A stretch of DNA of 64,000 nucleotides from Thermoplasmatales archaeon E-plasma (GTDB taxonomy: Archaea > Thermoplasmatota > Thermoplasmata > Thermoplasmatales > Thermoplasmataceae): NCBI GenBank assembly GCA_000496135.1, contig KI542675.1:124001-188000 (forward strand), given 5' to 3'. This document shows, piece after piece, positions 16,248-58,516 of this stretch. The notes beneath the pieces were generated by a model. It was given only the letters and a program-made list of their open reading frames with translations. It was not told the origin of the DNA and made no database searches. The position numbers were made by a program, and so were the translations under genes. How positions within the stretch are numbered: position 1 is the stretch's first letter; every line of letters begins with the position of its first letter.

Positions 16248-16403
16248 TGTTCATGGGATATCCGTATTGGGATATTGAATCATTTGCGTTTATGATGAAA
16301 ATTTTGAGAGGAACAATTATGAGATGTATAGCAAATACAATTGCTTTCAAAATTTGTTAGTATATTCAAACTTTTATAAGTTCTTTTGGCTGCTTTAGAA
16401 CCT

Positions 16404-22523: not shown

Positions 22524-22529
22524 TGTATC

Positions 22530-29300: not shown

Positions 29301-31250
29301 CAAGTCTACCAAGCAACGTAAAAGTCTAACTCCTAGAGAGATTGATAGTCCTTAGATTTTTGACGATCCATCCATCCTGGAGGAGTAAAAGTCTAACTCC
29401 TAGAGAGATTGATAGCAGTTGTAAAACTGGTTTCGGCTCCAGTGGCTGTAGTAAAAGTCTAACTCCTAGAGAGATTGATAGATTCGCAGTCAGGATGCAC
29501 ACAGGCGGTTCAAAGTAGTAAAAGTCTAACTCCTAGAGAGATTGATAGCGACATCCGGGACTCGAAGTGCCGGACTATACCATCGTAAAAGTCTAACTCC
29601 TAGAGAGATTGATAGATCTTGATGATTATATCAGTAGTCATCTTCGCGGCAGTAAAAGTCTAACTCCTAGAGAGATTGATAGGGTTATCATCCCGGGTAA
29701 AAGAATTCTTCCTCCAGGGTAAAAGTCTAACTCCTAGAGAGATTGATAGGTATGCTGAGCTATTGCGTTCTGCGTAAGCATCTGTGTAAAAGTCTAACTC
29801 CTAGAGAGATTGATAGTCCTAACAGAAAACTGCCACTTCCCCGGTGTGAATAGTAAAAGTCTAACTCCTAGAGAGATTGATAGGAATAGGAGGAAAAAGA
29901 GTTAAGCTCTTTTAATGAGTAAAAGTCTAACTCCTAGAGAGATTGATAGTTGACTGTTTCTGTAATCGTCGAAGAGGCCGTATTGGTAAAAGTCTAACTC
30001 CTAGAGAGATTGATAGTGTTCCCCTCAACCACCAATGTGGCCTGATTGAGAGTAAAAGTCTAACTCCTAGAGAGATTGATAGGTCTAATGTTCTTACCAA
30101 TTCACCGGCATCTTTTGTGTAAAAGTCTAACTCCTAGAGAGATTGATAGTGTGACATCCTTCCTCCCCTGCCGCTCACTGGACCTCGTAAAAGTCTAACT
30201 CCTAGAGAGATTGATAGCATTCCCATACCTCCTCAAAAACTTCATCCCATTTTGTAAAAGTCTAACTCCTAGAGAGATTGATAGTTACTCTGGTTTCTTT
30301 CTTTGCCATAATGATCCATGGTAAAAGTCTAACTCCTAGAGAGATTGATAGGAAAAGGATGTGACGGGTTTTGAGAACGATATCTGAGTAAAAGTCTAAC
30401 TCCTAGAGAGATTGATAGGATATGATTTCTTGGTGTTGTATTCACAGGATTGAGGTAAAAGTCTAACTCCTAGAGAGATTGATAGGGATTAACCATAAAA
30501 GAAATCGACGGAGAGCTTCTAGTAAAAGTCTAACTCCTAGAGAGATTGATAGTTGTTAGAATGGATTCTTCTAGTCCCATTAACTGCAGTAAAAGTCTAA
30601 CTCCTAGAGAGATTGATAGTCCATCCGGAAGTACCAAGGGAAAAACCAAAGAATGGTAAAAGTCTAACTCCTAGAGAGATTGATAGCCTGCTCATTGGCG
30701 ATCTTTCCCCTTTCTTATTGATGTAAAAGTCTAACTCCTAGAGAGATTGATAGTGATGTGTACAAGGCACTCCAGAGGATAGCCAGAGAGTAAAAGTCTA
30801 ACTCCTAGAGAGATTGATAGGATCGCCCAGAGTAACGGATAAAACGCCTTCCGGTAGTAAAAGTCTAACTCCTAGAGAGATTGATAGTCAACTGGTAATG
30901 AGTAAACTCACCACCGACCCATCGTAAAAGTCTAACTCCTAGAGAGATTGATAGGATTCTTCAACTTTAGTTAATGTATATAATTTTTATAGTAAAAGTC
31001 TAACTCCTAGAGAGATGTGTAAAAGTCTAACTCCTAGAGAGATTGATAGGTGGCGCAGAATACGTTTTCGGCCTCAGGAAGTGCTGTAAAAGTCTAACTC
31101 CTAGAGAGATTGATAGGGATTTCTTATGGTATTTCCAATGCCACTTCGGGCCGTAAAAGTCTAACTCCTAGAGAGATTGATAGGTTATAATCAATCATTA
31201 TATTATATAAATGGTGATTGTAAAAGTCTAACTCCTAGAGAGATTGATAG
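26379..31250 (+). CRISPR. Type I-D CRISPR array, 74 repeats of 31 bases
   Basis: By counting start positions I find 74 copies of a 31-base repeat that begins GTAAAAGTCTAACTCC and ends GAGATTGATAG, with 72 full spacers of 34-37 bases. The 3' end ATTGATAG resembles the 8-base crRNA handle left by Cas6. Variant copies: 28849 (last base changed), 28917 (one extra A), 28985 (one T to A), and 30992-31016 (cut to 25 bases and followed by only two bases before the next repeat). Two spacers (26810-26844 and 27011-27045) share sequence. The final repeat, 31220-31250, is followed by 16 bases of spacer and then an insertion sequence. Confidence 0.98.
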
Positions 31251-32784: not shown

Positions 32785-32833
32785 TGAATACTGTTAAACA
32801 AAATGCTAAGATTATATTGTGGGGAACTTATTA

Positions 32834-35296
32834 ATGGATTTTTCTGATTTTTTTAATGAAACAACTGGCTTCGAACCATATCCATATCAAAAACGCTTGG
32901 CCGAAATAGAGGAATATCCGTCTTTGCTAAATATTCCTACTGGTTTAGGAAAGACTGCCGCCATAGTAACAACATGGATATGGAGAAGAAAATTTCATGA
33001 CGACCAAACAATTCGTGAAGGTACACCGAGAAGGCTGATATACTGCCTGCCTACTAGAGTATTGGTTGAACAGGTCAGAGATAATATACTATTGTGGCTT
33101 AAAAACGCGAATTTACTTGGGGGAGAAATAAAGACAATATCAACAAATGAAAAGGAAGTGGTAGAATCCTACAAACCCTCATGGGTAGACGGGAATAAGA
33201 TCTCGGTTACAACCCTTATGGGAGGTGAAGAGGATTACAATTGGGACATATACCCTGAGAGGGATTCAATCATAATTGGAACTCAAGATATGCTTCTTTC
33301 AAGAGCTCTTAACAGGGGTTACGGGATGAACAGATATAAATGGCCTGTTCATTTTGGTCTGCTAAACAACGATTCTTTATGGGTTTTTGATGAGGTTCAA
33401 TTAATGGGTTCTGGAATTAAAACTAGTGTTCAGCTAGAGGCATTCAGAAGGTATTACGGGGTCATCAAGAAAACACAGACGATATGGATGAGCGCCACTG
33501 TGAACGTAAATTGGCTCGATAGTGTGGATTTCAAGGATGAAATGGTTTATCCACAAGAATTAAAGTTATCGGATGATGATTATTCAAATGAAGAAATTAT
33601 CAAAGTTGTAAAAAGCCCTAAAAAGTTAAATAAAATCACAATCAATGAATATGATTTTAAGGAATTAGTTGGTAAGGTATTAAATGAACATGTCTCGGGG
33701 ACCAGAACACTGGTCATATTTAATACAGTAGATAGATCAAGAACGTTTTTCACTGAATTAAAAATGGAGCTGGAAAATCGCCATTCCACCGCTACTCCAT
33801 TACTAATACATTCTCAATTCAGGAAGAATGATCGAAGTATAATTCTAAAATCGCTCCTTGAAAAACCGGGCAGTGGTGGTACTATAGTTGTTTCGACGCA
33901 AGTAATTGAGGCAGGAATTGATATATCTTCAAAGACACTGTTCACAGAACTTGCCCCTCTGTCATCCATGGTCCAACGTTTTGGAAGATGCAATAGAAAG
34001 GGATTGGATAGCGGTGCCAAAATTTTTTGGATTGATATTCTATCTACAAAGAATGATAAATTTATATTACCTTATAAAAAAGAATTACTAGAGGAGAGTC
34101 AAAACTTCCTTGTCAAGAAGGACACAAAAGATATTACATCAGAAGATTTCTCTAAAATAAATGAAATTGATGAAGATATTACAATTATAAGGCCTAAAGA
34201 TATTCTTGAACTTTTCAATACAGACACAGATTTAACTGGTGAAGATATTGATATATCGAGATTTATCCGAAACGATAACAGCACTAACGTTCAGGTATTT
34301 TGGAGGGACTTTAAAAATGATGATCAATATATTAATGAGCCTTTTCCAAAAAGTAATGAATTATGCTCTGCACCTATACAAGACGTAAAAGCCTTGGTAA
34401 AGAAGAAAAATGAGGTTCTTTTTGCATGGGATTTTTTTGAAGGAATGTGGGTAAAATTACAGGACCCAAATAACATTTTTCCAGGGAGAATGATTATGCT
34501 GAAAGCATTATCTGGGCATTACTCAAAAACAGAGGGTTGGAACCCTGATTTAAAGGAAAAGGTCGATTGTGCATTGTACAATATAAAAGAGAAGGGTGAA
34601 GGATATAGCAGTAATGATTCGTCGCAGGAAGAATGGCAAACAATAGAAGAGCATACAAAGAGGGTCGTGGATTGCGCTCGGGTGATCAATTATGCAATCA
34701 ATATGCCGTCTAAATTCTCCAATTGGGTCGAGTCTGGTGCGAGATGGCATGATGCAGGAAAGGCACATGAAGCTTTTCAGGCATTAATCAATAAAGATAA
34801 TGCTCCTATCAAAGGTCAATGTTTATGGGCAAAAGCACCTGCAGACTCTTGGAGGAAGGGAAGACTGCCAAAACATCAAATGGGGAACGAAGTATTAAGA
34901 AAACACTTCAGGCACGAATTAGTCTCTGGGTTACTCGCGATAATGAATAAACAAGAAGATGTAGTAGCTTTTCTAGCGATGGCACACCATGGAAAAGTCA
35001 GAACGGCAATAAGATCAATGCCTGATGAATATGTTCCAGAAAAAAATGATATAAGATATGCATGTGGCGTTTGGGATGGTGACAGAATACCATCAATAGT
35101 CTTAGGAGAAAGGATTTGCAGTGCAGAAGCAACAATAAATTTATCTATAATGGAACTCGGTTTAATTAAAAACGCCAAAAGCTGGTTAAATAGAATATTG
35201 GATTTAATATATGATCCAAACATAGGCATTTTCAGACTCGGATATATGGAAGCCATCGTTAGGGCGGCAGATAGAAGAGCTAGTGGAGGAATTTAA
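32834..35296 (+). CDS. cas3: Cas3 helicase-nuclease (type I-G)
   Basis: An 820-residue Cas3 counted from the ATG at 32834; a GTG at 32819 would add five residues but would overlap the ribosome-binding site. The SF2 helicase comes first (Walker A PTGLGKT, residues 35-41; DEVQ near 186; SATVN motif III; QRFGRCNRKG motif VI). A C-terminal HD domain follows (H near 606 in EEHTKRVVDCARV; WHDAGKAHEAF near 637; AHHGK further on). Helicase-then-HD order is the type I-G/I-U arrangement and the reverse of most Cas3 proteins. It opens a tightly packed operon ending at cas2. Confidence 0.92.
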   Translation: MDFSDFFNETTGFEPYPYQKRLAEIEEYPSLLNIPTGLGKTAAIVTTWIWRRKFHDDQTIREGTPRRLIYCLPTRVLVEQVRDNILLWLKNANLLGGEIKTISTNEKEVVESYKPSWVDGNKISVTTLMGGEEDYNWDIYPERDSIIIGTQDMLLSRALNRGYGMNRYKWPVHFGLLNNDSLWVFDEVQLMGSGIKTSVQLEAFRRYYGVIKKTQTIWMSATVNVNWLDSVDFKDEMVYPQELKLSDDDYSNEEIIKVVKSPKKLNKITINEYDFKELVGKVLNEHVSGTRTLVIFNTVDRSRTFFTELKMELENRHSTATPLLIHSQFRKNDRSIILKSLLEKPGSGGTIVVSTQVIEAGIDISSKTLFTELAPLSSMVQRFGRCNRKGLDSGAKIFWIDILSTKNDKFILPYKKELLEESQNFLVKKDTKDITSEDFSKINEIDEDITIIRPKDILELFNTDTDLTGEDIDISRFIRNDNSTNVQVFWRDFKNDDQYINEPFPKSNELCSAPIQDVKALVKKKNEVLFAWDFFEGMWVKLQDPNNIFPGRMIMLKALSGHYSKTEGWNPDLKEKVDCALYNIKEKGEGYSSNDSSQEEWQTIEEHTKRVVDCARVINYAINMPSKFSNWVESGARWHDAGKAHEAFQALINKDNAPIKGQCLWAKAPADSWRKGRLPKHQMGNEVLRKHFRHELVSGLLAIMNKQEDVVAFLAMAHHGKVRTAIRSMPDEYVPEKNDIRYACGVWDGDRIPSIVLGERICSAEATINLSIMELGLIKNAKSWLNRILDLIYDPNIGIFRLGYMEAIVRAADRRASGGI

Positions 35297-35297
35297 G

Positions 35298-37703
35298 ATG
35301 GATTATGCCCTCGATGGATGTAAACATGAACCTTTCAGTTCATATCTGAAGGCGCTAGCTGTATTGAGAATAGTTGGAGAACAAGAGGATAAGACCATCA
35401 AAGGTTTTTGGAAATCAGACACGTTTGTAATAGAAACAAAATTGACCAGGGAAGAGTTGGTGGAATTTCTTATCAACAAGTATTCACCAACTCCCATAGT
35501 ATCACCATGGAATGGAGGAAGTGGATTTTTCCAAGGAGATAATAAGGAAGCAATCAATGAGATAATTAAGGATAAGTCAGGCAGGTTTAAACCTTATAGG
35601 GAAACGATTGAAAAAATACAATCTTGGAAGAATTTAATGAAACAAGATTTGCCCTTTTCAAAAGTTATGGATGAAGTTGAATCCTTGGTGAATCAAGGGA
35701 ATCAAAAAAAGAATGAAAGAAACTCGAAGTTGATCAATAAATTATCTAGCACTAGGAATGATTTATCAAATGATAAAAACAAATGGATCAATCAATACGT
35801 GGATAACTATCCTCTCGAACAACTTATAGAGGAAGCGAATAAGTATACTGATACCAATCCTCAAGTGCAAAAGATGTCATCAGATTTTATAAGTAATATA
35901 AAAAGCATCAATACCGCTTTTTATGAACATTTTCGTAAAAGCAGCAAAACATTAATAGTCAGAAAGTGTAGAAACTATCTAGACTCAAAGGTTGTTGAAT
36001 GGTTAGACTCCGCAGTTTTGTTTGATCCTGAAGATGAATTATATTACCCTCCTATATTGGGAACTGGAGGAAACGAAGGGAATTTGGAGTATTCAAACAC
36101 ATTCATGGCAAACTTGATAAAAGTATTAATGGTTGGAGCGCAAGGTCTTACCAAAGCACAATCTGAGAATCTGTTAAAAAATTCTCTTTTCGCAGAACCC
36201 GTTTCAAATTTGATTTCATCGAAAATTGGAAAATTTAACCCTGGCAGGGCTGGTGGGGCCAATCAGGGCTTTGGAATAGAAGAGAAGGACTTTCCAATCA
36301 ATCCGTGGGATTTTGTGCTTTTAATGGAGGGAGCCATCCTATGGTCCAGTAGCATTGGTAAACGACAAGGTATAAGCTCCGGTATTCCAAGAAGTCCTTT
36401 TACAGTATATTCCAGTCCAGTAGGTTATTCATCTGCATTGCCGGAAAAGAGAGATTTTTATGAAATCTGGGCTCCACTCTGGTACAACCCTGTTGAAATA
36501 AGAGAATTAAAAGCCTTTTTTTGCGAGGGGCGTTCAAAAATCAGCAGGAAAAGTGCAAGAACTGGTTTAGAATTTGCAGAAGCTGTAGCATCTCTAAGCG
36601 TAGACAGGGGTATATCTGAATTTGCAAGATATGCTATACTTGAGAGACGAGGTAAAAGTTTCGCTGTAGTTCCAGCAGGAAAATTTAAAGTGGAGTATAG
36701 AAGGGAAGTGGATCTCATAAGAGAGCTTAATCCGATATTAGCGGAAATAGATTCATTTCTGAAAGGTTTTAAATCAAATCCTCCAGGTGAGTTATCATCT
36801 CTCAGGTTGAGGATTGATCAACAAATGTATAGAGCGCTATCCCACGGAGGGTCTTTTGAGATGAGAAAACTTATGTCCAGCATTGGGGCTTTCGAGAAAA
36901 TTATATCAAAAAGAGATAATAAAAGGGAACCAAAGATCAGAAGACCCTTTTCCGGACTTAGCATGAAATGGCTTCTGTATTCTAATGATGGAAGCGTTGA
37001 ATTCAGAATTGCATCCACCTTGGCATCAATAGAGGCAACCGGCAAGGTAGGGTCTATACGTTCAAACATAGAGCCGGTCAATCCTGAAAAGGAAAATACA
37101 TGGGATGAAGGACTAGGGCAATACTCATATATTGGAAATTCTTTGCCAGATAAATTAGGAAATGTTCTAAGACGAAGGATCATTGATACAGATCGCTATT
37201 CATCAGAAAAAAATCCGCTTTCGTCAAGTATCTGGTTATCCCTAAGTGATATTGTTAAATTTATCACCAACAAAGTGGATGACGCTCTTATAGAAAATCT
37301 ATTATTCGGGATGATGTGGATTAGATGGAAATCCAATGAAGCAAAGGATATCATTGATGAATTTAACAGAAGAAACAGAGGGACTGAATCCTTTGAAATA
37401 GTACCAAGTTCATGGGCATTATTGAAGCTTTTATTTCTTCGCGAATGTATAAGAAACAACGAGGGAAAAAAATTATGGATAAAACCTGAAATATCTATTA
37501 TTACACTCCTAAATGCAGGGAGAATTGATGAAGCATGTCGAATTGCAAGGAGAAAACTCTATGCCCACGGTCTCAATCCAGTTGGAAGCAGATTCCCAGA
37601 TATATCGGGCGGGGATAGAATGGCTGCAGCTTTATTATTTCCTGTAAGAAATGAAAATGCGTTATTTAAAATGGTTCTTAAAATGAAAGAACAGGGGGAT
37701 TGA
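35298..37703 (+). CDS. csx17: Csx17 (Cas8g), large subunit of the type I-G effector
   Basis: An 801-residue Csx17/Cas8g. The N-terminus (LDGCKHEPFSSYLKALAVLRI, and PTPIVSPWNGGSGFFQGDN around residues 71-89) is diagnostic of the family. The ATG at 35298 has a strong GGAGGA ribosome-binding site seven bases upstream and follows the cas3 stop by one base; the earlier ATG at 35283 lies inside cas3. It is the large subunit of the I-G Cascade, probably responsible for PAM reading; no nuclease motif is seen. Confidence 0.92.
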   Translation: MDYALDGCKHEPFSSYLKALAVLRIVGEQEDKTIKGFWKSDTFVIETKLTREELVEFLINKYSPTPIVSPWNGGSGFFQGDNKEAINEIIKDKSGRFKPYRETIEKIQSWKNLMKQDLPFSKVMDEVESLVNQGNQKKNERNSKLINKLSSTRNDLSNDKNKWINQYVDNYPLEQLIEEANKYTDTNPQVQKMSSDFISNIKSINTAFYEHFRKSSKTLIVRKCRNYLDSKVVEWLDSAVLFDPEDELYYPPILGTGGNEGNLEYSNTFMANLIKVLMVGAQGLTKAQSENLLKNSLFAEPVSNLISSKIGKFNPGRAGGANQGFGIEEKDFPINPWDFVLLMEGAILWSSSIGKRQGISSGIPRSPFTVYSSPVGYSSALPEKRDFYEIWAPLWYNPVEIRELKAFFCEGRSKISRKSARTGLEFAEAVASLSVDRGISEFARYAILERRGKSFAVVPAGKFKVEYRREVDLIRELNPILAEIDSFLKGFKSNPPGELSSLRLRIDQQMYRALSHGGSFEMRKLMSSIGAFEKIISKRDNKREPKIRRPFSGLSMKWLLYSNDGSVEFRIASTLASIEATGKVGSIRSNIEPVNPEKENTWDEGLGQYSYIGNSLPDKLGNVLRRRIIDTDRYSSEKNPLSSSIWLSLSDIVKFITNKVDDALIENLLFGMMWIRWKSNEAKDIIDEFNRRNRGTESFEIVPSSWALLKLLFLRECIRNNEGKKLWIKPEISIITLLNAGRIDEACRIARRKLYAHGLNPVGSRFPDISGGDRMAAALLFPVRNENALFKMVLKMKEQGD

Positions 37704-37705
37704 AA

Positions 37706-38743
37706 ATGGAAAGAAAAGATGAAAGTTTAGAGAAAGCAACAAGGATATTGATGGAAATTGAGTTAGAACCAGTTCAAGGAGATAGGTTTCAGCCTACCGG
37801 ATTTCCAGATTTAGGTGCAGCTGTATACGAAAGGCCTGACGGGAAAAGAATGCTTTTGGTTGAATCAGCCCAGTCCATGGCAAATCGGTTGGAAGCTGTG
37901 TGTCTTGAGAATGGCGGGCCAAATATTTCAGAAGAGCTGGAGGGTTTACCATATATTTTAGTAAAGCTTTCTGGAGATATAAGTTCAGAAACAAGTTCCT
38001 TAATCGAACCTCATAGAATAAATTCTCCTTTCATAATCAGTGACAAAGAATTTGCGACAAAATTTAAGAAGAAGGCAGACTATTCAAAAGAGAAACCGCT
38101 GAACCTCAAGAAGGCAGCAGAGGCACTTTTTTTCTATGATATCAACTCATTGTTGCATGGCGTTTTTATGGCCAATCTGGAGGGTGGAAGGCTTAAGGTA
38201 CAGAGGATTGTGACTGGATTTATAGAGGCTCAAGGCATCAGGGAAGTATCATCTGGAGGGGTAAAGAACAGTCCAATAGACCCTAGCGGAACAATAAAGG
38301 CCGAAGGAGAGAAGGGTGATGTTTACGGAAACGTTCCATTTTATAGAGTAGAATATACTGCAGATAAAATAAAAGCTTATTTCAATATAGATCTTGCTTT
38401 GATAGAAGGATATGGTCTTGAATCAGAGGCAAAAGAGTTGCTCATAACGCTCTCTTTCTATAAGATAAGTAAGTTTCTCAAAGAAGGGTTAAGACTCAGG
38501 ACAGCCTGTGACTTCAGAAAAAAAGGCGAATTGACTATTACTGAACCTAAAGGTATGAAGTTTCCAATGGAAGATGAAATCATTAGTAACTTAAAAGGTT
38601 TGATCAAGGCATGCAAGGACAAAAATCTATTTTCTAACCCTGCTGTTACAGTAATTGAAACGAAGACCAAAAAAGGCAGTAAGAAGGAGTCTACTAAATC
38701 TCCGGAGACGGATAACTCAAATAGCGATAATCCAACGGAATAG
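37706..38743 (+). CDS. csb1: Csb1 (Cas7 backbone subunit, type I-G)
   Basis: A 345-residue Csb1/GSU0053-family Cas7 protein. The opening LEPVQGDRFQPTGFPDLGAA and MLLVESAQSMANRLEAVC are characteristic of the family (crRNA-binding backbone). A TTG at 37700 overlapping the csx17 stop is possible, but the ATG at 37706 is preceded by AGGGGGAT. The C-terminal 25 residues are charged and low-complexity (KKGSKKESTKSPETDNSNSD). Confidence 0.92.
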   Translation: MERKDESLEKATRILMEIELEPVQGDRFQPTGFPDLGAAVYERPDGKRMLLVESAQSMANRLEAVCLENGGPNISEELEGLPYILVKLSGDISSETSSLIEPHRINSPFIISDKEFATKFKKKADYSKEKPLNLKKAAEALFFYDINSLLHGVFMANLEGGRLKVQRIVTGFIEAQGIREVSSGGVKNSPIDPSGTIKAEGEKGDVYGNVPFYRVEYTADKIKAYFNIDLALIEGYGLESEAKELLITLSFYKISKFLKEGLRLRTACDFRKKGELTITEPKGMKFPMEDEIISNLKGLIKACKDKNLFSNPAVTVIETKTKKGSKKESTKSPETDNSNSDNPTE

Positions 38744-38762
38744 GCCCAAGGCGAAGAACACT

Positions 38763-40238
38763 ATGTTAGTCATAAGTATAGACTTTATAACTGGTAGATT
38801 TCATGCCACCCCATGGGGAAGGAATGTGAACGAAGGAATACCGGAATGGCCTCCATCTCCTTATCGAGTAATTAGGGCACTCATAGATTCATGGAAGAGA
38901 AAATATTCGAATATTTCTGAAGCCAGGGCCGAAGAATTATTCTGTGAACTTGCTTCGGAGTCCCCCAAATTTTGCTTGCCTCCTGTAAAAACATCATTCA
39001 TGGAAAGTTATTTAAGTGCTAACTCTAAAAAACAGGTTTCTAAAAACCTCGTCTATGATCCTTTCATAGTTTTAAATCCCGGCGATTCAGTTTTAGTCGG
39101 ATGGGAAAACTTGTCTCTATCTCCTGCTCTTAGAGAAGACCTAAAAAACCTATTGTCCGGAATTAATTATCTAGGTAGAAGTGAATCCTGGGTAACTATG
39201 AAATTAAAGGAATCAGATGATAGAATAAAATGGAATTGCCTTCCTATAGCAAACATAGATAAAACAGAAAATGCACAAAAAGTCGAGGTGGCAAATATTC
39301 TGTCAAAAAGGGAATATGAAGAAAGAAAAGTTGAACATAGTACAAAAATGGGGTGGCTGGAAGCACTAATGGACAGAACAGTAGATATGTTTCGAAGGAA
39401 GAATGATTTGCCACCTGCACTGAAAATGGAAAATTATGTTATTTCAAGTGAATACGTAAAATTTAAACATTCTCAAGAAAATAAAGAAACTGATAATCAT
39501 ATAACCACTGTCATGTTTGCATTGGAATCCAAGGTTCTACCTTTGATGTTGGAAACAGTAGTAATATCAGAAAGAGTTCATAGAAAACTGATGGGAATCA
39601 ATAAGAAAATTATGGGAGATCCATCCAGGGTGTCTGAGAAATTTAGTGGGAGAGATAAACAGGGGAATCTCCTAATTGGGCACAGGCACGTTAAGATACT
39701 TCCATTGGACAGGAATAATGATGGTAGGATAGATCATTTGATGATCACAGGGAAAGAGCCTTTTAACACTGATGAAATTAAATCTATTTATGCTATGAAA
39801 AGCATCTGGCAATCAGATGGAAAACCTGATATACAATTGATTCCGTTACAATGGGGAACCATGGAAGAAGTGGCTGGGGACTTAAGATCTAAAAAATTTA
39901 GAAGCGAAACACCATTCATTTTGACGAGACACTACAGGAAAGGAAGGGGTGATTTTAATGAATGGCTGAGGGAAGAAGTGAAGAAGGAGTGTAAAAATCA
40001 CGGGTTTCCTGAGCCAGTTTCAATAAACCGAATAGATAAGTTGAACAGGGATGGTCATAGCTTCCATTGGATTGAATTTGTGCGAAACAGGAAGAATGAC
40101 CCTTCGAGGGCAGGTTATGGATTTGAACTAGAATTTTCAGAACCTGTTTTATCACCGATTTCAATAGGTTACGGTTCACATTATGGGTTGGGTATTTTCT
40201 TGCCTATAAGCGGTATAAGGAGAAATGTTGCAGAATAA
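38763..40238 (+). CDS. csb2: Csb2 (Cas5-Cas6 fusion, type I-G)
   Basis: A 491-residue Csb2/GSU0054-family protein that combines the Cas5-like 5'-handle subunit with a Cas6-like processing domain. The start ISIDFITGRFHATPWG...EWPPSPYRVIRALID matches the family opening, which fixes the ATG at 38763 (19 bases after csb1). The C-terminal region has GYGSHYGLGIFLPIS, a glycine-rich end like the Cas6 loop. It is the only pre-crRNA nuclease in this locus, so it should cut the hairpin repeats of the 42614 array. It overlaps the cas4-cas1 start by 14 bases. Confidence 0.9.
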   Translation: MLVISIDFITGRFHATPWGRNVNEGIPEWPPSPYRVIRALIDSWKRKYSNISEARAEELFCELASESPKFCLPPVKTSFMESYLSANSKKQVSKNLVYDPFIVLNPGDSVLVGWENLSLSPALREDLKNLLSGINYLGRSESWVTMKLKESDDRIKWNCLPIANIDKTENAQKVEVANILSKREYEERKVEHSTKMGWLEALMDRTVDMFRRKNDLPPALKMENYVISSEYVKFKHSQENKETDNHITTVMFALESKVLPLMLETVVISERVHRKLMGINKKIMGDPSRVSEKFSGRDKQGNLLIGHRHVKILPLDRNNDGRIDHLMITGKEPFNTDEIKSIYAMKSIWQSDGKPDIQLIPLQWGTMEEVAGDLRSKKFRSETPFILTRHYRKGRGDFNEWLREEVKKECKNHGFPEPVSINRIDKLNRDGHSFHWIEFVRNRKNDPSRAGYGFELEFSEPVLSPISIGYGSHYGLGIFLPISGIRRNVAE

Positions 40239-41922
40239 TTCTGAAAATAATGATAATGATCTGCTTCCTGTTCGCATGCTAAATGAGTTGGTATATTGCG
40301 AAAGGCTCTTTTATCTTGAGTATGTTCAAGGCGATTTTCAGGATTCGGCAGAAACTATTGAGGGAAGATATAGGCACCATAATGTTGATAAAGAAAAAGG
40401 AGACTTACCGAATAAATCCGTTCATGAAGAAGCCAATAGCAGTATACCAATTCACGCTAGTTCTGTAATGCTATCTGGAGAAGTATGCAAATTTATTGCA
40501 AGAATGGACCTGATCGAGGGATCAGGAAAAGAGGTTCAGCCGGTTGAATATAAAAGGGGTAAGCCTCCTGACAATCCCGATAGGGTGTGGCCTTCAGACT
40601 TAATTCAAGTATGTGCCCAGGCGATAATTTTGAGGGAAAATGGTTTTGATTGCAATAGAGGAGTGGTTTATTACTTTGAAACGAAACAAAGAATTTTAGT
40701 CGAAATTACAGAAGAACTGATCAGAACAACAATGTCATATGCTGAAAAGGCAAGGTCGATTTCTACATTAAAAATAATTCCAAAGCCTCTTGTGGACAGT
40801 CCAAAATGTCCCAAATGCTCTCTTGTAAGCATTTGCTTGCCGGATGAAACAAATAGCATGATAAATATAAAAGGAGAAATTGATGATACGGATGTAAGAA
40901 GACTTTATCCGGCTAGGGATGATTCATTGCCAGTATATGTTTTAGACCAAGGGGCAATTGTAGGGAAGAAAGGTGAGGAACTTGAAATCAAACAATCTGG
41001 AAAGGTGGTTTCAAGGATAAAGCTTATGGAAACATCTCAATTATCAATATTTGGAAACGTGCAGGTAACGACTCAAACTATTCAAGAACTTTGTAGAAGA
41101 GGAATTCCAGTTTGTTATTTTAGTTTTGGCGGATGGTTTAATGGCATGACTCAGGGAATCACTCATAAGAATGTAGAATTGCGCATCCATCAATATGAAA
41201 TTGCCCGTGATCAAAAAAAGGCATTAACTATTGCATCAAAATTTGTAAATGGGAAAATAAGAAATTGTAGAACTCTTCTTAAAAGAAATTTGAAGGTGGA
41301 TTCCGAGAAGGCACTGGAAGAGCTTAAAAAATATGCTGATTCTGCACTGAGGGCATCTGATCTTCCGATGTTGCTAGGTATAGAAGGAACTGCCGCGAGA
41401 ATTTATTTCATGCATTTTGCAGATATGTTCATTCAAGATGTATCATCAGAGAAATTTGATTTTCAGTCACGAAACAGGCGCCCACCAAAGGATCCTGTTA
41501 ATGCAATTCTTTCTTATTTATATTCTATCCTTTCCAAAGACATAACCGTAATTCTTACAGCAGTTGGATTTGATCCATTTAGGGGATTTTTACATCAGCC
41601 AAAATATGGAAATCCTGCCCTGTCTTTGGATCTTATGGAGGAATTCAGGCCCCTTATCGTTGATTCTACAGTGTTAGGATTAATAAATAATAAGGAAGTC
41701 ACATTAAGTGATTTTATAAGGCGAGGAGATGCCGTCTCAATGAAAGAGAGTACTAAGAAGGTTATCTTGAAAGCTTACGAAAGACGAATGGACACTCTTA
41801 TAACCCATCCATATTTTGGATATTCGGTCAGTTATAGAAGAAATCTTGAGGTGCAAGCCAGATTGCTTGGAAGGGTATTATCTGGGGAAATTCAGGAATA
41901 TCCGGTTTTTTATACGAGGTGA
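40225..41922 (+). CDS. cas4-cas1: Cas4-Cas1 fusion (type I-G adaptation)
   Basis: A 565-residue fusion. Cas4 occupies about residues 1-210, with cluster cysteines C25 (VYCERLFYLEY) and a C-terminal trio near 195, 198 and 204 (CPKCSLVSIC), and the RecB core QPVEYKRGKPPD. Cas1 follows from about 228 (LPVYVLDQGAIVGKKGE), with catalytic residues near E386 (LGIEGTAARIYF), H456 (FLHQP) and D469 (LDLMEEF). Such fusions are typical of type I-G and select PAM-proper spacers. The frame is intact, unlike cas1 of the I-D locus. Confidence 0.95.
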   Translation: MLQNNSENNDNDLLPVRMLNELVYCERLFYLEYVQGDFQDSAETIEGRYRHHNVDKEKGDLPNKSVHEEANSSIPIHASSVMLSGEVCKFIARMDLIEGSGKEVQPVEYKRGKPPDNPDRVWPSDLIQVCAQAIILRENGFDCNRGVVYYFETKQRILVEITEELIRTTMSYAEKARSISTLKIIPKPLVDSPKCPKCSLVSICLPDETNSMINIKGEIDDTDVRRLYPARDDSLPVYVLDQGAIVGKKGEELEIKQSGKVVSRIKLMETSQLSIFGNVQVTTQTIQELCRRGIPVCYFSFGGWFNGMTQGITHKNVELRIHQYEIARDQKKALTIASKFVNGKIRNCRTLLKRNLKVDSEKALEELKKYADSALRASDLPMLLGIEGTAARIYFMHFADMFIQDVSSEKFDFQSRNRRPPKDPVNAILSYLYSILSKDITVILTAVGFDPFRGFLHQPKYGNPALSLDLMEEFRPLIVDSTVLGLINNKEVTLSDFIRRGDAVSMKESTKKVILKAYERRMDTLITHPYFGYSVSYRRNLEVQARLLGRVLSGEIQEYPVFYTR

Positions 41923-42217: not shown

Positions 42218-42613
42218 ACTCCTCAATAATGATAACATAACAAAAACTTTGCATGGTTCAGCTGAAAACATCCCTGGGGGTGGTGGGGCAATAGGTGAAC
42301 TCAGCGGAATCAATAAAAAATTCCATCCGATCGAGAGGCTAGGTGCCTCGCATTTCTTTGGTCTCGCTCGATCCGTCTTTTTCCTGAAATTTACTAACTT
42401 TTCAAATATGATGTTCCCTTAATCTGGATTTTTGGATACATTTCCAAGGGGTGCTCGTCATTTTGCTTCCACTGGTTTCTTTTTTTGTCTATAATGTTAT
42501 ATTTTTTTCTTAGTCTCACATTGAAAAAAAGGTCTGTAGCAATTTTGGCAGTTGTTTGAAAATTGCTGTCGGGAGACTACATAATTTTAAATTTGTTTAA
42601 CGTATTTAAAGCA
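42218..42613 (+). promoter_or_regulatory. Leader region of the type I-G array
   Basis: 396 bases with no gene. It holds a G-rich tract (CCTGGGGGTGGTGGGG, about 42272-42287), a nested inverted repeat (listed separately), long T-runs around 42480-42513, and an AATTTTAAATTT tract centred ~27 bases before the first repeat that can serve as the array's TATA box. Degenerate repeats at the far side of the array support a leader on this side. Confidence 0.5.
42329..42380 (+). terminator. Nested hairpin with T-run in the I-G leader
   Basis: Outer arms GATCGAG (42329-42335) and CTCGATC (42367-42373) enclose a small hairpin, GAGGC-TAGGT-GCCTC (42335-42349). Five T follow at 42376-42380. It could be the end of the cas transcript or a short structured RNA; the shared G at 42335 means the two stems compete by one base. 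Confidence 0.4.
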
Positions 42614-43670
42614 GTTTCCATGACTGAAAAGTCATGGCTCCATTGAAGCGGATGATCTAAACCTGTTTTATCAGTTGCTGTTCCTGTTTCCATGACTGAA
42701 AAGTCATGGCTCCATTGAAGCTCTGTATTAAAGACATGGCCTGATATTGCTACTTTCGTTTCCATGACTGAAAAGTCATGGCTCCATTGAAGCAGGAAGG
42801 ACTGATTAGAAAATGCAGAAATCTCCAATAGTGTTTCCATGACTGAAAAGTCATGGCTCCATTGAAGCGGATCAGTTATGTTTGGCATTTCTTCACCTCA
42901 GAGAAGTTTCCATGACTGAAAAGTCATGGCTCCATTGAAGCTAATGGTTCATTTGAGCCATGGTGTATTTTAGAAACGTTTCCATGACTGAAAAGTCATG
43001 GCTCCATTGAAGCCATCCCAAGCAGTTCGAGCCTGTTGGTGTTCTCGTAAAGTTTCCATGACTGAAAAGTCATGGCTCCATTGAAGCGGAAAGATGAAGG
43101 TTCAATTCTACCGGGAGCTCCAGAGTTTCCATGACTGAAAAGTCATGGCTCCATTGAAGCAAGAAGGCCTGGACTGGTGCAAGGAAAGAACCTATCTGTT
43201 TCCATGACTGAAAAGTCATGGCTCCATTGAAGCACTTCCTGTAATAGCATGTATCCTAGGGTATCTGCCTGTTTCCATGACTGAAAAGTCATGGCTCCAT
43301 TGAAGCACCTGATTCGGGAATGCGCTAGCCGGAATGATATATTGTTTCCATGACTGAAAAGTCATGGCTCCATTGAAGCACTTCCTGTAATAGCATGTAT
43401 CCTAGGGTATCTGCCTGTTTCCATGACTGAAAAGTCATGGCTCCATTGAAGCTACAGAGACAGATCAAGGAATATCCTTTCAAGCAGAGTTTCCATGACT
43501 GAAAAGTCATGGCTCCATTGAAGCTTTAATGTTCGTGCAAGGGTGATCTCTTTCTCCCTTGGTTTCCATGACTGAAAAGTCATGGCTCCATTGAAGCCAT
43601 ATCATAGGAGATGGTTGGCTGTCATCCCGGGTAAGTTTCCATGACTGAAAAGTCATGGATCCATTGAAGT
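42614..43670 (+). CRISPR. Type I-G CRISPR array, 15 repeats of 36 bases
   Basis: Fifteen copies of a 36-base repeat starting at 42614, 42686, 42758, 42833, 42906, 42978, 43052, 43125, 43198, 43271, 43344, 43417, 43489, 43562 and 43635, with 14 spacers of 36-39 bases. Inside each repeat, CCATGACT-GAAA-AGTCATGG is a perfect 8-base-pair hairpin with a GAAA loop. The last copy (43635-43670) has two changes, one near the middle of the 3' arm and one in the final base, marking the trailer end. Spacers 9 and 11 (43234-43270 and 43380-43416) are identical. Confidence 0.98.
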
Positions 43671-51883: not shown

Positions 51884-53194
51884 GTGGACATTGCAGAATT
51901 CAAGAAGGTGATTCAGAATCAGGAGGGCGAAAGGGATTCGATGCTCAAAGATCCAGATTTGATAAACAGGGAGGTTGGAACCGATCTTGTAGAAAAAAGC
52001 TTGAAGCATCCAAATATAATTGCAATTCTTGGTATTAGAAGATGTGGAAAATCCACTCTTTCATGGATATTACTGAAAGACCGTAAATATGCGTATATAA
52101 ATTTTGATGATGAATTGCTGTACGGGATAAAGGTCGATGATTTTGATAGACTGTTGAAAGCCTTTTATGATCTTTACGGGGAGGATTTGCAATATTTCTT
52201 ATTGGATGAGATCCAGAATGTGAAAGGGTGGGAATTATTCGTAAGCAAGCTTGGAAGAACGAAAAAGGTCATAGTAACCGGATCCAATTCAAATCTACTG
52301 AGCGGTGAACTGGCCACACATTTGACAGGCCGTTACAATTCTATTACACTTTTCCCTTTCAGTTTCAAGGAGTTTCTCGCATACAGGAAAGTTCCTGATG
52401 ATTATTTCTACGGTAAAGAATTTAGAACAGAGCGTGTGGCCAAAGCACTGAAGTATCTTGAGGAATATATTCAATATGGTGGGTTTCCAGAAGGTTATAA
52501 GTTCACGCATGATCGATTAAAATCAATCTTTAGAGATATAATAACTAAAGATGTTACCAGACGATACAGGATAAAAAACATAGAATCCATAGAATCTTTG
52601 TCTAAATACCTGATTTCGATCTATTCCAATGAGATATCGTTTAGCAGTTTAAGAAACATAGCAGGAATTAAAAAAATTGAAACCGTGAAAAATTATCTAA
52701 CCTACCTGGAAAATTCTTATCTGTTCTTTCTTATGGAGAGATTCTCATTTAAGCTGAAACAGCAGGTGATAGCGCCGAAGAAAATTTACTGCATTGATAC
52801 CGGTATGATAAATGCAATGACAGTAGGCAATTCCAGGAACATAGGAAGATTGATGGAAAATCTTGTAGCAGTAGAACTGTTAAGGAGAAAAAACTACAGC
52901 AATGATATGATTGAAGTCTACTACTGGAAGGATCACAATAATCACGAAGTGGATTTTCTCATAAAGGCGGGCAAAAATGTTGTGGAATTAATACAGACCA
53001 GTTACGTGAGCGATCTGAACCTGATTAACAGGAGAGAAATTGACAACCTCATAAAAGCATCTGAGGAACTCCACTGCAATAATCTGTCAATAATAACGTG
53101 GGACTATGAAAGTGTCATAGAAAAAGAAGGAAGGGAGATCACTTGCATTCCTCTCTGGAAATGGCTAATGGGAACAGCGTTATCATCTTCCTGA
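51884..53194 (+). CDS. AAA-type ATPase with DUF4143-like C-terminal nuclease fold
   Basis: A 436-residue P-loop protein of the archaeal ATPase/AAA_14 group. Walker A is GIRRCGKST (residues 50-58), Walker B LLDEIQNV near 107, and TGSNSNLL the sensor motif. FPFSFKEFLAYR is typical. The C-terminal DUF4143-type domain has VEVYYWKDHNNHEVDFLIKAGKNVVELIQ, a PD-(D/E)xK-like pattern (E/D-x-D, then E). Such proteins are numerous in archaea and of uncertain role, often linked to mobile elements. GTG start at 51884 lies ~24 bases after CTTTTATA, so the transcript is probably leaderless. Confidence 0.82.
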   Translation: MDIAEFKKVIQNQEGERDSMLKDPDLINREVGTDLVEKSLKHPNIIAILGIRRCGKSTLSWILLKDRKYAYINFDDELLYGIKVDDFDRLLKAFYDLYGEDLQYFLLDEIQNVKGWELFVSKLGRTKKVIVTGSNSNLLSGELATHLTGRYNSITLFPFSFKEFLAYRKVPDDYFYGKEFRTERVAKALKYLEEYIQYGGFPEGYKFTHDRLKSIFRDIITKDVTRRYRIKNIESIESLSKYLISIYSNEISFSSLRNIAGIKKIETVKNYLTYLENSYLFFLMERFSFKLKQQVIAPKKIYCIDTGMINAMTVGNSRNIGRLMENLVAVELLRRKNYSNDMIEVYYWKDHNNHEVDFLIKAGKNVVELIQTSYVSDLNLINRREIDNLIKASEELHCNNLSIITWDYESVIEKEGREITCIPLWKWLMGTALSSS

Positions 53195-54445: not shown

Positions 54446-55900
54446 ATGTCCGCAATTCTTAAATCTATCGAAATTGGAAATTTTAAGAGCTTTGATCACA
54501 TTAAACTTGACCTGGACAGGTTAAATGTAGTCGTAGGACCAAATGGATCCGGGAAGACCAATTTGCTTGAAGGCATACAACTGGCATTTGGTTGCATCAA
54601 TTATAACTCTCCATCTGACTATCCATTTATTTCATTTTGGGGATATAATAACGCGGTCCACAATTCTGATTCTAAGAGGCCGATAACTTTTAAATTCCAG
54701 CTTTCAATCGATTCATACGAGGTAACCTATGAATCGAAAATATCTGGCGCTGGCAGTTTCCTTAGATTTATAGAGGAAAATATAATTATTGAAGGTTTCC
54801 TGGAATTAAAAAGATTAGGATCCAGATTAATGATTAATTATACAACCCAGGCCATTCATAAGATAAATCTACAAAAGGAATTTCTGAAAGAACTGCAAAT
54901 GTTAAGGCAAGCTTTTATGGGCGAAAAGTCGGATTCTTTAGATGAGTCCCTGACCATCGAGGCAATGAATATAAGTATAGATGGCATCGACGAGTCCAAA
55001 TCAGCTTTTTCGTTCTTATCTTTCAATCTTTATTTGTCAACCAAAACACGCCACGGTAAAACTCAATATGGTATGTTTATGCTTGAACCTTCTCACGGGA
55101 ATCAGAATATTCCGGCAAAAAAGCCCTTCATACTGGTGTCTCCAATTGTGCCTGTAATTTCTGATAATACTAAATCAGGCAGGAGGGTCTTCATACCTCT
55201 AATTGAATATATATCTTCATTCTTTAGTTATAATATATCCCCTCTCTCAATGGTCAATAATTCAAGAAACAAGATGGATCGACTGCGCGTAATTCTGGTT
55301 AGGCACAGTTCTATTTATGGAATGAAAGAACCTGTTCCACTTAACAGGCCATATGAAGGGCTATTATCTGGAGAAGTCGCAATTTCATGGCTTTTCAACA
55401 AATTTAATGAAAACGGAGGGTTATTTCCGGAAAAAATCAAGAGAGCAATGGAAGATCTCTTTCCAAACTGGCAACTGGGATTCAGAGTGACTGAAGATGG
55501 CAACATACTCCTGCAAATTAAGGAGATAAACCCGGGTTCAGGGACTCTGACTCTTCTTCCACCTTCTATTCCAGATGGACTTTTCAAACTCCTGCTAATA
55601 ATGACTGCAATAGAAATGCACCCCAGCATTCTTCTGATTGACGAAATAGAAAATTCTCTTCATGACTCAATTATTCAGTATGTGATGGATTCTCTAAGGG
55701 AGTCTGGGGTAACCACAATCGTCACCACTCATTCTTCAATGGTTGTAGACAGATCGGAACTGAACGAGTTAAGAATAATTGAAAAAATAGACGGAGAGAG
55801 CATAATCAAAAGCATTTCAAAACCAGTTCAGATGAAGAAGAAACTTCTGGAGTTGGGAATTACTCCCAGCGACTCATGGCTTTATGGAGAACTTGCTTGA
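54446..55900 (+). CDS. SMC/OLD-like ATPase of a two-gene ATPase-TOPRIM module
   Basis: A 484-residue ABC-type (RecF/OLD-like, AAA_21/AAA_15) ATPase. Walker A GPNGSGKT (31-38) follows the usual IEIGNFKSF start. Walker B is LLIDEIENSLHD (about residues 396-407), with the D-loop-like segment and the switch histidine in IVTTHSS. No nuclease domain of its own. The stop overlaps the next gene's TTG start as TTGA, so the two products are made together. A TATA-like ACTAATATACAAAA lies ~26 bases before the ATG. Paired ATPases of this type occur in OLD-, PARIS- and similar phage-defence systems, which is the likely role. Confidence 0.85.
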   Translation: MSAILKSIEIGNFKSFDHIKLDLDRLNVVVGPNGSGKTNLLEGIQLAFGCINYNSPSDYPFISFWGYNNAVHNSDSKRPITFKFQLSIDSYEVTYESKISGAGSFLRFIEENIIIEGFLELKRLGSRLMINYTTQAIHKINLQKEFLKELQMLRQAFMGEKSDSLDESLTIEAMNISIDGIDESKSAFSFLSFNLYLSTKTRHGKTQYGMFMLEPSHGNQNIPAKKPFILVSPIVPVISDNTKSGRRVFIPLIEYISSFFSYNISPLSMVNNSRNKMDRLRVILVRHSSIYGMKEPVPLNRPYEGLLSGEVAISWLFNKFNENGGLFPEKIKRAMEDLFPNWQLGFRVTEDGNILLQIKEINPGSGTLTLLPPSIPDGLFKLLLIMTAIEMHPSILLIDEIENSLHDSIIQYVMDSLRESGVTTIVTTHSSMVVDRSELNELRIIEKIDGESIIKSISKPVQMKKKLLELGITPSDSWLYGELA

Positions 55901-56370
55901 AAGTTACAATTCTCATAGAGGATACCTATGGGAAACCATTCATGGATGGTTTGATTAAGGATCTCAAGTCGAAGGAATTCGTAGATCGTTCGTGGGCATT
56001 TAAAGTCAATCAATACAACGTCTATAAACTTGATAAAATGCTTAGAGCCGCAACGGATTCCGATAAAATAATTCTGTTTGTAGATTGCGATGGTGATTGT
56101 AATAACAATAACGCTCGAAGTATTCATGAAATTTGCGAAAAACAGAACGATGGGAAGATAGGAATTATAGATCTGAGGTACGAGATTGAAGACTGGCTCT
56201 GCATTTCTGAGGGTATGAAATTGGGTAAGCAGAAGTCTTCAAGCGCTATAATGGCAAAAAGGGGATACAAAAAATTCCGTCTTCCAGAGTATTCCACCAA
56301 ACTGAATGTTGAGTTGCTTATGAAAAATTGCAAAAGCTTCAAAGATTTTATAATTTTATTGAAGGAATAA
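55897..56370 (+). CDS. TOPRIM-like (DUF4276/RloB-like) partner protein
   Basis: A 157-residue protein starting at TTG 55897, since the frame upstream of it lies in the ATPase gene. VTILIEDTYGKPFMDGLI has a glutamate (E8) where TOPRIM-type proteins of the DUF4276/RloB group have their catalytic Glu, LFVDCDGD supplies a DxD pair (D63, D65 or D65, D67), and DLRYEIEDWLC follows as in the family (x-E-I-E-x-W-L). A nuclease or nucleotide-transfer role is inferred. Coupled to the ATPase. Same architecture type as AriA-AriB of PARIS, although AriB belongs to another TOPRIM family. Confidence 0.72.
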   Translation: MKVTILIEDTYGKPFMDGLIKDLKSKEFVDRSWAFKVNQYNVYKLDKMLRAATDSDKIILFVDCDGDCNNNNARSIHEICEKQNDGKIGIIDLRYEIEDWLCISEGMKLGKQKSSSAIMAKRGYKKFRLPEYSTKLNVELLMKNCKSFKDFIILLKE

Positions 56371-56371
56371 A

Positions 56372-56392
56372 ATTGTTATGTTATTTAACAAT
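56372..56392 (+). terminator. Hairpin after the ATPase-TOPRIM operon
   Basis: ATTGTTA and TAACAAT (7-base perfect arms, 7-base loop) begin two bases after the stop codon at 56370. It may protect or end the operon transcript; no T-run follows, so the terminator call is weak. Confidence 0.3.
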
Positions 56393-56659
56393 GGATAATT
56401 CCTAAAACGCCACAGGGAATCTTTATAACTTGAGTTCCGCGCCTGAATTATTCTAAATTTGTACAAATAACAGCTATTTTACTATCTTTTTGAACCTGAC
56501 TTCCGCATGACAAACATTAGCACTCTTTCATGCAGAATCTGTGTTTTACAATGTTTTTTATAAATTATGAAGAGTTATGTATGTGCACATTCACGGATTC
56601 CTGGACAGGGAAGGTCAAGTTTTTTCAGAATATGGGAAGCATCTTCGCTCTCCGATTAA

Positions 56660-56944
56660 ATGAATAGATTTCTATTTCCCGCACTTACGGGAACTGCATC
56701 CAGGCAGTTCAGGTCTTTCCTTATACTGACTCTTCCGGTTTCAAGACTTATTGAGAAGGAAACTGAAATTACAATCTCAGAGGCAACCCGAATTCTCTCA
56801 CAATTGAAAGTTACACCGCTTCGTCTTCAATCAGGAATCATCATAATTAGATCTGAATCAGAACAGGTTCTAAATCTCCTCAATAAGATGAACATTCCAT
56901 ATTCGGAAAAAATCATTTATGGTGCACGGACAAAAAAGAAATAA
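56660..56944 (+). CDS. Small protein resembling the IS-borne accessory protein
   Basis: A 94-residue frame just left of IS copy 2 on the plus strand. Its C-terminal half (QSGIIIIRSESEQVLNLLNK) follows the same pattern as LRGVLILRNEDAPKVLEFLGQ in the IS-borne gene: glycine, hydrophobic strand, Arg, then a V-L-x-x-L helix. It could be a distant relative left behind by another element. No family recognised; 289 bases upstream without a gene separate it from the TOPRIM gene. Confidence 0.45.
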   Translation: MNRFLFPALTGTASRQFRSFLILTLPVSRLIEKETEITISEATRILSQLKVTPLRLQSGIIIIRSESEQVLNLLNKMNIPYSEKIIYGARTKKK

Positions 56945-57053
56945 ATTCAACAGCAAAGACAGTAAATCACCATTTAAACATGCATTCTCAAAAGAATTAA
57001 ACTGCGGAACACACGTTATTAAGCAAAAGGACCCCCATGGCTTTGGGACAATA

Positions 57054-58178
57054 TTATTTTGAGCAGAGTCCCCTGTAATCTTTTATCATCTCTGGATTGG
57101 TACGCTTCAGATAGCTGTACTGTCTCAGGTTGTGCATGTTGATCTTCAGAGTCTCCTCCGTCTGTTTTCTCTGAGGCAGTTTCTTCCTTATCTTTACAGG
57201 CATCTTCCTCTTTATCATGGAATTCACGGATTCTGATATGGATCGCATGTGGTACTGCTCCAGCCATGATTGAGTGTCATCAACGAAACTGTATAACATG
57301 GTTTTCCATGAAGCCACTCCTTTGGAACGGAATGTTGCATTTGTCTTCGGGAGGAAATATGGTGTGATTCCGTATTCTTCCACTATTGAGCAGATCTTCC
57401 TGTTGGAATACAGTGCATCTCCAAGCATTACCTCAATCTGCGGGCACAGATCCACAGTGTGTGCCATTATATCCGGAAACATGGACAGCTCTCCTATGGA
57501 GTGATCATCAGTTGTGTATAAACCAGCTATCATCTTGGTGTGAACACCCACTGAAAAGGAGGAATACTGGAAGTCATGCTTTCCCTTTGTGTGCGGGAAA
57601 GCATCCGATTCCATCTTATCCTTATTCTTATTCTTCTCCTTCTCGATCCTCTGCTGGCTCCTCTTTGATTCGTAGTTGACCTTCATGGTGTCTGGATCAC
57701 CGGTTCCATCGGTGGAGAATATCTTCTCCATGGAATTGCCCGATTCATTCATGATCTTCAGAACCTCATCCAGTAGTTTTTTTGATCGTCCGGGATCATA
57801 ACCTCTCTCTATGGTCTTGTATGAGAATTCAGATGACACTCCAAGTTTTTCCCCGAATAATCTCAGGAATCCCTCTGCAATCCTGTTGGGCATGCCGAAG
57901 TATGTCTGCATCAGCATGACCTTAACTATATCCGAAGTTGGAACGGGAGGCCTTCCCGCTCCCCTCTTCTCCACCTGGATACGGGATGAGGCAATGTTAA
58001 CAACATCCCTTATTGTTTCCAGAACGTCGGCGATCTCGTTTACCTGTGCCTGGTCATACTGGTGCCAGTTCCTTTCGGCCGGTTCCCTCTTCTCGTAGGA
58101 GAAGGATTGATCCCTTACCGATTTAACAAGATTCCTCAGGTCCTCGACATTCTTCCTGGCCACATGTGTATATGACAA
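57054..58178 (-). CDS. DDE transposase of insertion sequence copy 2
   Basis: Identical at protein level to the transposase at 31282-32406 (374 residues; D157, D254 and E316 as candidate catalytic triad). Frame intact. See copy 1 for the domain description. Confidence 0.93.
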   Translation of the reverse strand: MSYTHVARKNVEDLRNLVKSVRDQSFSYEKREPAERNWHQYDQAQVNEIADVLETIRDVVNIASSRIQVEKRGAGRPPVPTSDIVKVMLMQTYFGMPNRIAEGFLRLFGEKLGVSSEFSYKTIERGYDPGRSKKLLDEVLKIMNESGNSMEKIFSTDGTGDPDTMKVNYESKRSQQRIEKEKNKNKDKMESDAFPHTKGKHDFQYSSFSVGVHTKMIAGLYTTDDHSIGELSMFPDIMAHTVDLCPQIEVMLGDALYSNRKICSIVEEYGITPYFLPKTNATFRSKGVASWKTMLYSFVDDTQSWLEQYHMRSISESVNSMIKRKMPVKIRKKLPQRKQTEETLKINMHNLRQYSYLKRTNPEMIKDYRGLCSK

Positions 58179-58192
58179 ACAGGTTTAAATAG

Positions 58193-58214
58193 TTATGTGG
58201 ACTATTCCACATAA
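58193..58214. promoter_or_regulatory. Palindrome between the two divergent IS genes (copy 2)
   Basis: The same 9-base inverted repeat with CTAT spacer as at 32421-32442, again overlapping the ATG of the small gene, with GTTTAAATA just to its left. Confidence 0.5.
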
Positions 58215-58516
58215 TGAATGGGACAATGATACTCTTTCATTTTCCTGAGAAGTCCGATCATGGAACAATAAACAAGTTCATGCAGAAATTCTACGGGCAG
58301 GATTCAACTTCATGGAAAGGAAAATACACGTATCACAGACATGGTTTGCTGGAGAACATACCTCACAGAAAACTGCTTAGAGGAGTCCTGATACTCAGGA
58401 ACGAAGATGCTCCAAAAGTACTTGAGTTTCTAGGGCAGTATTCTCTGACCCTGCATGTTAGGGAGATAAAGCTGACACCGGACGACGAAAAAACATTAGG
58501 GGAGACCCATGAATAA
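58214..58516 (+). CDS. Small IS-borne protein, unknown function (copy 2, 100 residues)
   Basis: Same as the 32442-32741 gene except for the last residues (GETHE), since three C here replace four C in copy 1 and shift the end. The affected residues are only the last two or three, so both versions may work. Which C count is ancestral cannot be told from two copies. Confidence 0.65.
   Translation: MNGTMILFHFPEKSDHGTINKFMQKFYGQDSTSWKGKYTYHRHGLLENIPHRKLLRGVLILRNEDAPKVLEFLGQYSLTLHVREIKLTPDDEKTLGETHE

Follow-up and report, generated by a model that had tools for sequence, protein, structure and literature searches.

The 64,000-nucleotide stretch of Thermoplasmatales archaeon E-plasma DNA analysed here (the window, to whose positions coordinates refer unless a relative is named) carries an ATPase gene overlapping a gene for a small protein, and this raises the question of whether the two form an antiviral system and, if so, how that system is related to those already described. 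Our analysis leads us to consider it likely that the pair is an operonic antiviral module of the abortive-infection type, comprising an OLD-ABC sensor and a TOPRIM effector and representing a divergent archaeal relative of HEC-01. The elements of the pair are as follows.

Positions 54446–55900, plus strand: OLD/RecF-type ABC ATPase, putative sensor or regulator, 484 residues with no nuclease domain, assigned from its motifs, Pfam and PADLOC matches and the family alignment.
Positions 55886–55889, plus strand: GGAG ribosome-binding site within the ATPase gene, read from the sequence, 7 nucleotides before the TTG of the partner.
Positions 55897–56370, plus strand: small TOPRIM-like (DUF4276-related) putative nuclease effector, 157 residues, with E8, D63, D65, E96, E98 and W100.

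The ATPase gene extends over 484 codons from an ATG at 54446 to a TGA at 55898–55900. The TTG start codon of the partner, at 55897–55899, overlaps this stop, the overlap of the two genes amounting to 4 nucleotides. An alternative start, the ATG at 55876, would give a product of 164 residues; we favour the 157-residue form because a TTG behind GGAG recurs in the relative from genome G014 (locus L005), whose product begins MKTKILIED. An earlier note on this DNA had described two translationally coupled genes and a 157-residue partner with E8 and a DCDGD motif. The positions of both genes, E8 and the motif were confirmed, the motif reading VDCDGD and supplying D63 and D65. As the small genes of some relatives seem to be out of frame, we considered programmed frameshifting between the two genes; it was rejected, since the relative frames differ between species (−1 in the window and +1 in genome G020).

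Analysis of the ATPase sequence revealed a Walker A motif (GPNGSGKT, residues 31–38), a Walker B motif (ILLIDE, with D399 and E400) and an H-loop (TTHS, with H429). The protein matches the Pfam families AAA_21 (2.5e-20), AAA_15 and SMC_N/RecF, and Pfam profile search found no TOPRIM or nuclease domain in it. The profile matches and motifs bear out its first description as an OLD-like ATPase without a nuclease domain. Among PADLOC profiles, the top match by a small margin is PDC-M25A (9.7e-26), followed by HEC-01A (1.5e-24) and AbiLi (2.1e-20); AriA (6.8e-20) is weaker than PDC-M25A and HEC-01A. For the ATPases of genomes G014 and G093, HEC-01A is the best PADLOC match, reaching 1.4e-35 in the latter. 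A single-sequence AlphaFold model of the ATPase, with a pLDDT of 34, was unusable.

The identity of the small partner is less immediately apparent. Alone, it gave nothing significant against Pfam or NCBIfam, and its PADLOC matches are to HEC-01B models only, the best at 1.3e-3 over part of the profile (4.8e-5 for the G014 homologue). HEC-01B can be equated with DUF4276, because it is matched at 6e-75 by a genuine DUF4276 protein from the same phylum. The Pfam DUF4276 model itself does not match the window protein and reaches only 0.026 with the G014 homologue. A DUF4276 profile that we built from seven other proteins, six from plasmids and one archaeal, was run against 1679 stop-to-stop frames from all loci collected and picked out the window protein (3.9e-5) and the G014 protein (1.9e-5); the best of 2000 shuffled copies of the window protein scores 10.9 bits versus 20.4 for the real one. 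Comparison of the small family with DUF4276 using hhalign gave a probability of 89% and an E value of 2.3e-6, with E8, the DxD motif and EIEDW aligning with their counterparts. No aligned sequence that covers E8, D63, E96, E98 or W100 differs at these residues (16 rows in all); D63 is kept in 16 of 16 rows and D65 in 15 of 16. The confinement of PADLOC matches to HEC-01B, the reciprocal profile search with its shuffled control and the invariant E, DxD and ExExW residues uphold the suggestion of the earlier note that the partner is nearer to DUF4276 than to the PARIS effector. At the level of sequence, there is good support for a distant homology between the small protein and the DUF4276/TOPRIM group.

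The fold was approached by modelling. A search of the small family against the sequences of solved structures returned nothing real (best E 0.46). The single-sequence AF2 model has a mean pLDDT of 55 and the order β1-α1-β2-α2-β3-α3-β4, with E8 ending β1 and DxD following β3; in this low-confidence model, the strand order and the placement of the glutamate and DxD are those of TOPRIM. Foldseek gave no match to the same model at E<1e-3. The matches that it did return, none significant, were generic Rossmann-like folds and, among viral models, a phage primase/helicase, ranked first, and a Toprim protein, ranked 14th. A partner without the TOPRIM fold had been named in the earlier note as evidence against its reading. 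No such evidence emerged: the sequence points to TOPRIM, and the fold itself is modelled at low confidence.

A tree of 16 ATPases places the window protein with those of G014, G020 and G093 in a clade of their own with 99/99 support. This four-member clade lies apart from the ATPases partnered by DUF4276 and from a group formed by G078, G026 and G083; two long-branch rows, AbiLi and locus L055, are unsurely placed in the tree. In the G078, G026 and G083 group, each ATPase gene has a small TOPRIM-like partner directly downstream with the pattern VEGxxDxxF ... DxN/D ... EIESWY. Another Thermoplasmatota branch is thus represented at the following positions.

L035 2742–3131, L015 2649–3125 and L025 3–407: TOPRIM-like partners with VEGxxD, DxN/D and EIESWY.

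A canonical DUF4276 gene lies directly downstream of the ATPase relatives in G159 and G396.

Split pairs of this kind are familiar, TOPRIM-linked OLD-ABC pairs being a recurring conflict module (PMC12839542). The closest likeness is to HEC-01, the 'Hma-embedded candidate' of PADLOC, in which an ATPase is paired with a DUF4276 protein: the two genes, their order and their near-overlap are the same as in the window, the window ATPase matches HEC-01A, and its partner, which carries the E, DxD and ExExW residues, has matches, though distant ones, to HEC-01B models only. The two differ in that the window ATPase falls outside the DUF4276-partnered clade, in the separate 99/99 clade, and in that the partner, at 157 residues as against 186–220 in the DUF4276 proteins compared, has no Pfam DUF4276 match. 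Since the ATPase clade is separate, we regard the window pair as a relative of HEC-01 rather than a member. The pair represents a remote archaeal branch of this catalogued candidate and not an unknown system.

PARIS (AriA–AriB) likewise combines an OLD-ABC ATPase with a separate TOPRIM nuclease encoded by an adjacent gene, and the AriA profile matches the window ATPase, more weakly than those of PDC-M25A and HEC-01A. The window partner has no match to AriB in PADLOC or to DUF4435 in Pfam at E≤1. Membership of PARIS was rejected on this account, the effector being DUF4276-like, and the expectation of a system different from PARIS is thereby borne out. AbiL (AbiLi–AbiLii/RloB), an abortive-infection system in which an AAA ATPase precedes a TOPRIM effector, resembles the pair through the AbiLi match. 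The partner has no match to AbiLii/RloB in the same searches that do find RloB/AbiLii in locus L056, and AbiL membership was rejected on the basis of the effector. WonAB and PD-T4-4 share the layout of an OLD-ABC ATPase with a small nuclease partner, and WonAB aborts infection, but their partner is a PD-(D/E)xK nuclease and not TOPRIM (PMC12137116). In Gabija, retron-Eco8 and class 1 OLD proteins, an OLD ATPase and TOPRIM are also combined; there, however, the domains are fused, and two of these systems have a helicase or retron partner, neither of which accompanies the window pair.

The small protein is present in 6 of the 77 genomes of the family by genome search, and profile search finds it in at most 8 of the 390 genomes of the phylum. 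Two of the latter, G210 and G141, are probably false; these matches were rejected, as they consist of a nucleotidyltransferase-like frame and a sequence riddled with stop codons. The ATPase gene lies directly upstream of the small gene in the window, G014, G020, G024, G025 and G093, and as fragments in G059, and this adjacency holds in Thermoplasmatota wherever the contig extends upstream of the small gene. In G031, the small gene and the 3' end of the ATPase gene lie at a contig end, and the G401 copy is cut. The only ATPase match on plasmids is from Persicobacter, where DUF4276 lies downstream, and the small protein of G014, used as query against plasmids, gave no match. DUF4276 pairs with the same gene order occur on bacterial plasmids of Meiothermus, Pseudanabaena, Synechocystis, Pseudomonas and Rahnella, that of Meiothermus inside a type I restriction operon and that of Synechocystis near toxin–antitoxin and phosphorothioation-associated genes. 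On viral contigs, no relatives of the small protein were found, and the ATPase relatives identified on them are parts of AbiL and of a PDC-M31-like pair. One such contig, L055, carries at 3534–5526 an intact ATPase and TOPRIM-like pair of PDC-M31 type, with an apparent integrase and DNA methyltransferase nearby.

Within the genus, only one of three other genomes, G031, has the small gene. A segment of 1419 nucleotides (window 55620–57038), covering the small gene and the 3' end of the ATPase gene, both open there, is 100% identical in the two genomes. The identity ends at 57038, exactly where a 1262-bp insertion sequence begins in the window. The long G031 contig C49, which aligns with the window at 79–81% identity at 44–50 kb and 81–86% at 1–16 kb, is without the pair. 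The contig with the identical G031 copy is 4.3 kb long and belongs to a metagenome bin, for which mis-binning or strain mixing is possible; another short G031 contig, C132, is also nearer to the window (96%) than the backbone is. In several other relatives, the effector is damaged. Its frame is shifted near the start in G025 (L008) and G093 (L010), where the ATPase frame is open, and both genes look damaged or cut in G024 (L007/L011) and G059 (L052:1–310). A broken effector beside an open ATPase fits an effector that is costly to its host, with assembly errors as the alternative. The small gene of G020 (L006 1495–2001) has no ATG, GTG or TTG in frame before the E motif, and may either begin at ATT or ATC or be dead. 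As judged from these sequence comparisons, the pair behaves as an accessory, mobile element.

The surroundings of the pair include two further elements.

Positions 57039–58300, minus strand: multicopy insertion sequence of 1262 bp, context outside the system, starting 0.7 kb downstream of the pair.
Positions 51884–53194, plus strand: AAA_14/DUF4143 ATPase, PADLOC candidate PDC-S01 (3.9e-104), a possible and separate defence gene 1.2 kb upstream of the pair.

Elsewhere in this genome, the insertion sequence recurs as three more complete and identical copies. Small open reading frames at 56660–56944 and 58214–58516, the C-terminal halves of which are vaguely similar, flank it. AAA_14/DUF4143 genes of PDC-S01 type occur near the pair or its remnants in the window, in G024 (L049:8837–10114) and, by eye, in G059 (L052:1133–2464). 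Two CRISPR arrays lie further upstream, at 26369–31200 (at least 70 repeats with a spacing of about 67) and 42588–43670, and the cas genes are at 17872–25994 and 32819–41922, each array being beside its own cas set. One set, with Csc2, Cas4 and Cas1, is I-D-like; the other, with Cas3, Csb1-GSU0053 and a Cas4–Cas1 fusion, is I-G-like. The second array seems to contain a duplicated spacer, since those preceding the repeats at about 43272 and 43418 look the same. Contig C18 of the congener G032 joins the equivalents of window positions 16292 and 44003 within about 280 nucleotides; because its flanks are joined in this way, the whole CRISPR-Cas block (about 16.3–44.0 kb) is absent from G032, by insertion or loss. 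The placement of the pair among insertion sequence remnants and near CRISPR-Cas, as first described, is correct: the pair lies between transposase remnants and the multicopy element, and the arrays with their cas genes are about 11 kb off. Over those 11 kb, the genes are ordinary, including an amidohydrolase, a metallo-beta-lactamase fold protein, MarR and an E1-E2 ATPase with a YHS domain, and since they separate the arrays from the pair, 'island' is a loose term here. Among the relatives, G020 has two AbiEii toxin genes 7–9 kb upstream of the pair; the flanks in G014 and G093 look metabolic by eye, with no defence island.

This distribution bears on two other explanations. The one characterised archaeal OLD protein, the fused Cran1, acts in the cell cycle and not in defence, and in Saccharolobus it is apparently essential and cell-cycle regulated (PMC12796447); as the N terminus of the window ATPase resembles RecF/SMC_N, the pair might be imagined to serve housekeeping or DNA repair, like Cran1 or RecF-type proteins. 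We consider this very improbable. Genes confined to at most eight of the phylum genomes, absent from the aligning G031 contig and broken in several relatives do not suit such a role, and the layout of Cran1 differs, with a fused ATPase–TOPRIM protein and a membrane-protein neighbour. Housekeeping contexts of the homologues, which the earlier note had named as evidence against its proposal, were not found, the homologues being rare, mobile and often broken. Scarcely credible to us is a decayed relic that is carried by insertion sequences and has lost its expression. The pair does lie between transposase remnants and an intact multicopy element, and broken copies exist in several relatives, but both frames in the window are intact with all motifs and a ribosome-binding site, and what is present of the identical G031 copy is open too.

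The antiviral module that we favour probably works like PARIS and AbiL, by analogy, while being neither. We infer complex formation, sensing, a nuclease activity and its target, and a role in defence, with the ATPase as sensor and controller and the TOPRIM protein as effector, from the PARIS, RloB and WonAB relatives. In PARIS, AriA forms an OLD-ABC hexamer and retains AriB until release is triggered by a phage protein, and AriB is a TOPRIM dimer that, once released, cleaves tRNA-Lys (PMC12409363). By the same logic, the window ATPase would bind and control the 157-residue partner, which would be a metal-dependent TOPRIM-fold nuclease with a metal site formed by E8, D63 and D65. On sensing infection, the ATPase would activate or release the nuclease, which would cut a nucleic acid on which both host and virus depend, most likely tRNA as with AriB and less likely DNA, and the cell would be halted before the virus multiplies.

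The same components could serve mainly as a toxin–antitoxin or addiction module whose role is to retain a mobile segment; in that case the ATPase would do no more than neutralise a TOPRIM toxin, with no viral trigger. AAA ATPases do neutralise TOPRIM/RloB toxins in growth assays (PMC10440598), and overlapping genes, mobile spread and a broken effector beside an intact ATPase in two relatives would all be in keeping with this. We think it unlikely, though sequence by itself does not distinguish it from defence. The position of a large OLD-type ATPase gene ahead of its partner suits a sensor, and in WonAB, where the effector is toxic only with the ATPase and simple sequestration is ruled out, the ATPase can be needed to activate the nuclease and not only to restrain it (PMC12137116).

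Beyond this locus, we put forward more tentatively, as a proposal somewhat short of an even chance, that split OLD-ABC/TOPRIM immunity has an archaeal clade acting in Thermoplasmatota, whose separate, minimal effector family would cut tRNA or DNA in response to a virus. Little of archaeal defence has been charted outside CRISPR and restriction (PMC12988326), and the split OLD of PARIS type (class 4) has been reported from bacteria only (PMC12796447). The window pair, which does not itself belong to class 4, is an archaeal instance of a split layout, and together with the G078/G026/G083 and G159/G396 branches it indicates that the split ATPase/TOPRIM layout is spread in archaea too. The combination of an ATPase with DUF4276 is already known as HEC-01; what is new is a deep archaeal branch with a short effector of its own, unrecognised by Pfam and NCBIfam. 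This effector, at 157 residues shorter than the DUF4276 proteins compared, is useful for defining the minimal requirements of a TOPRIM effector.
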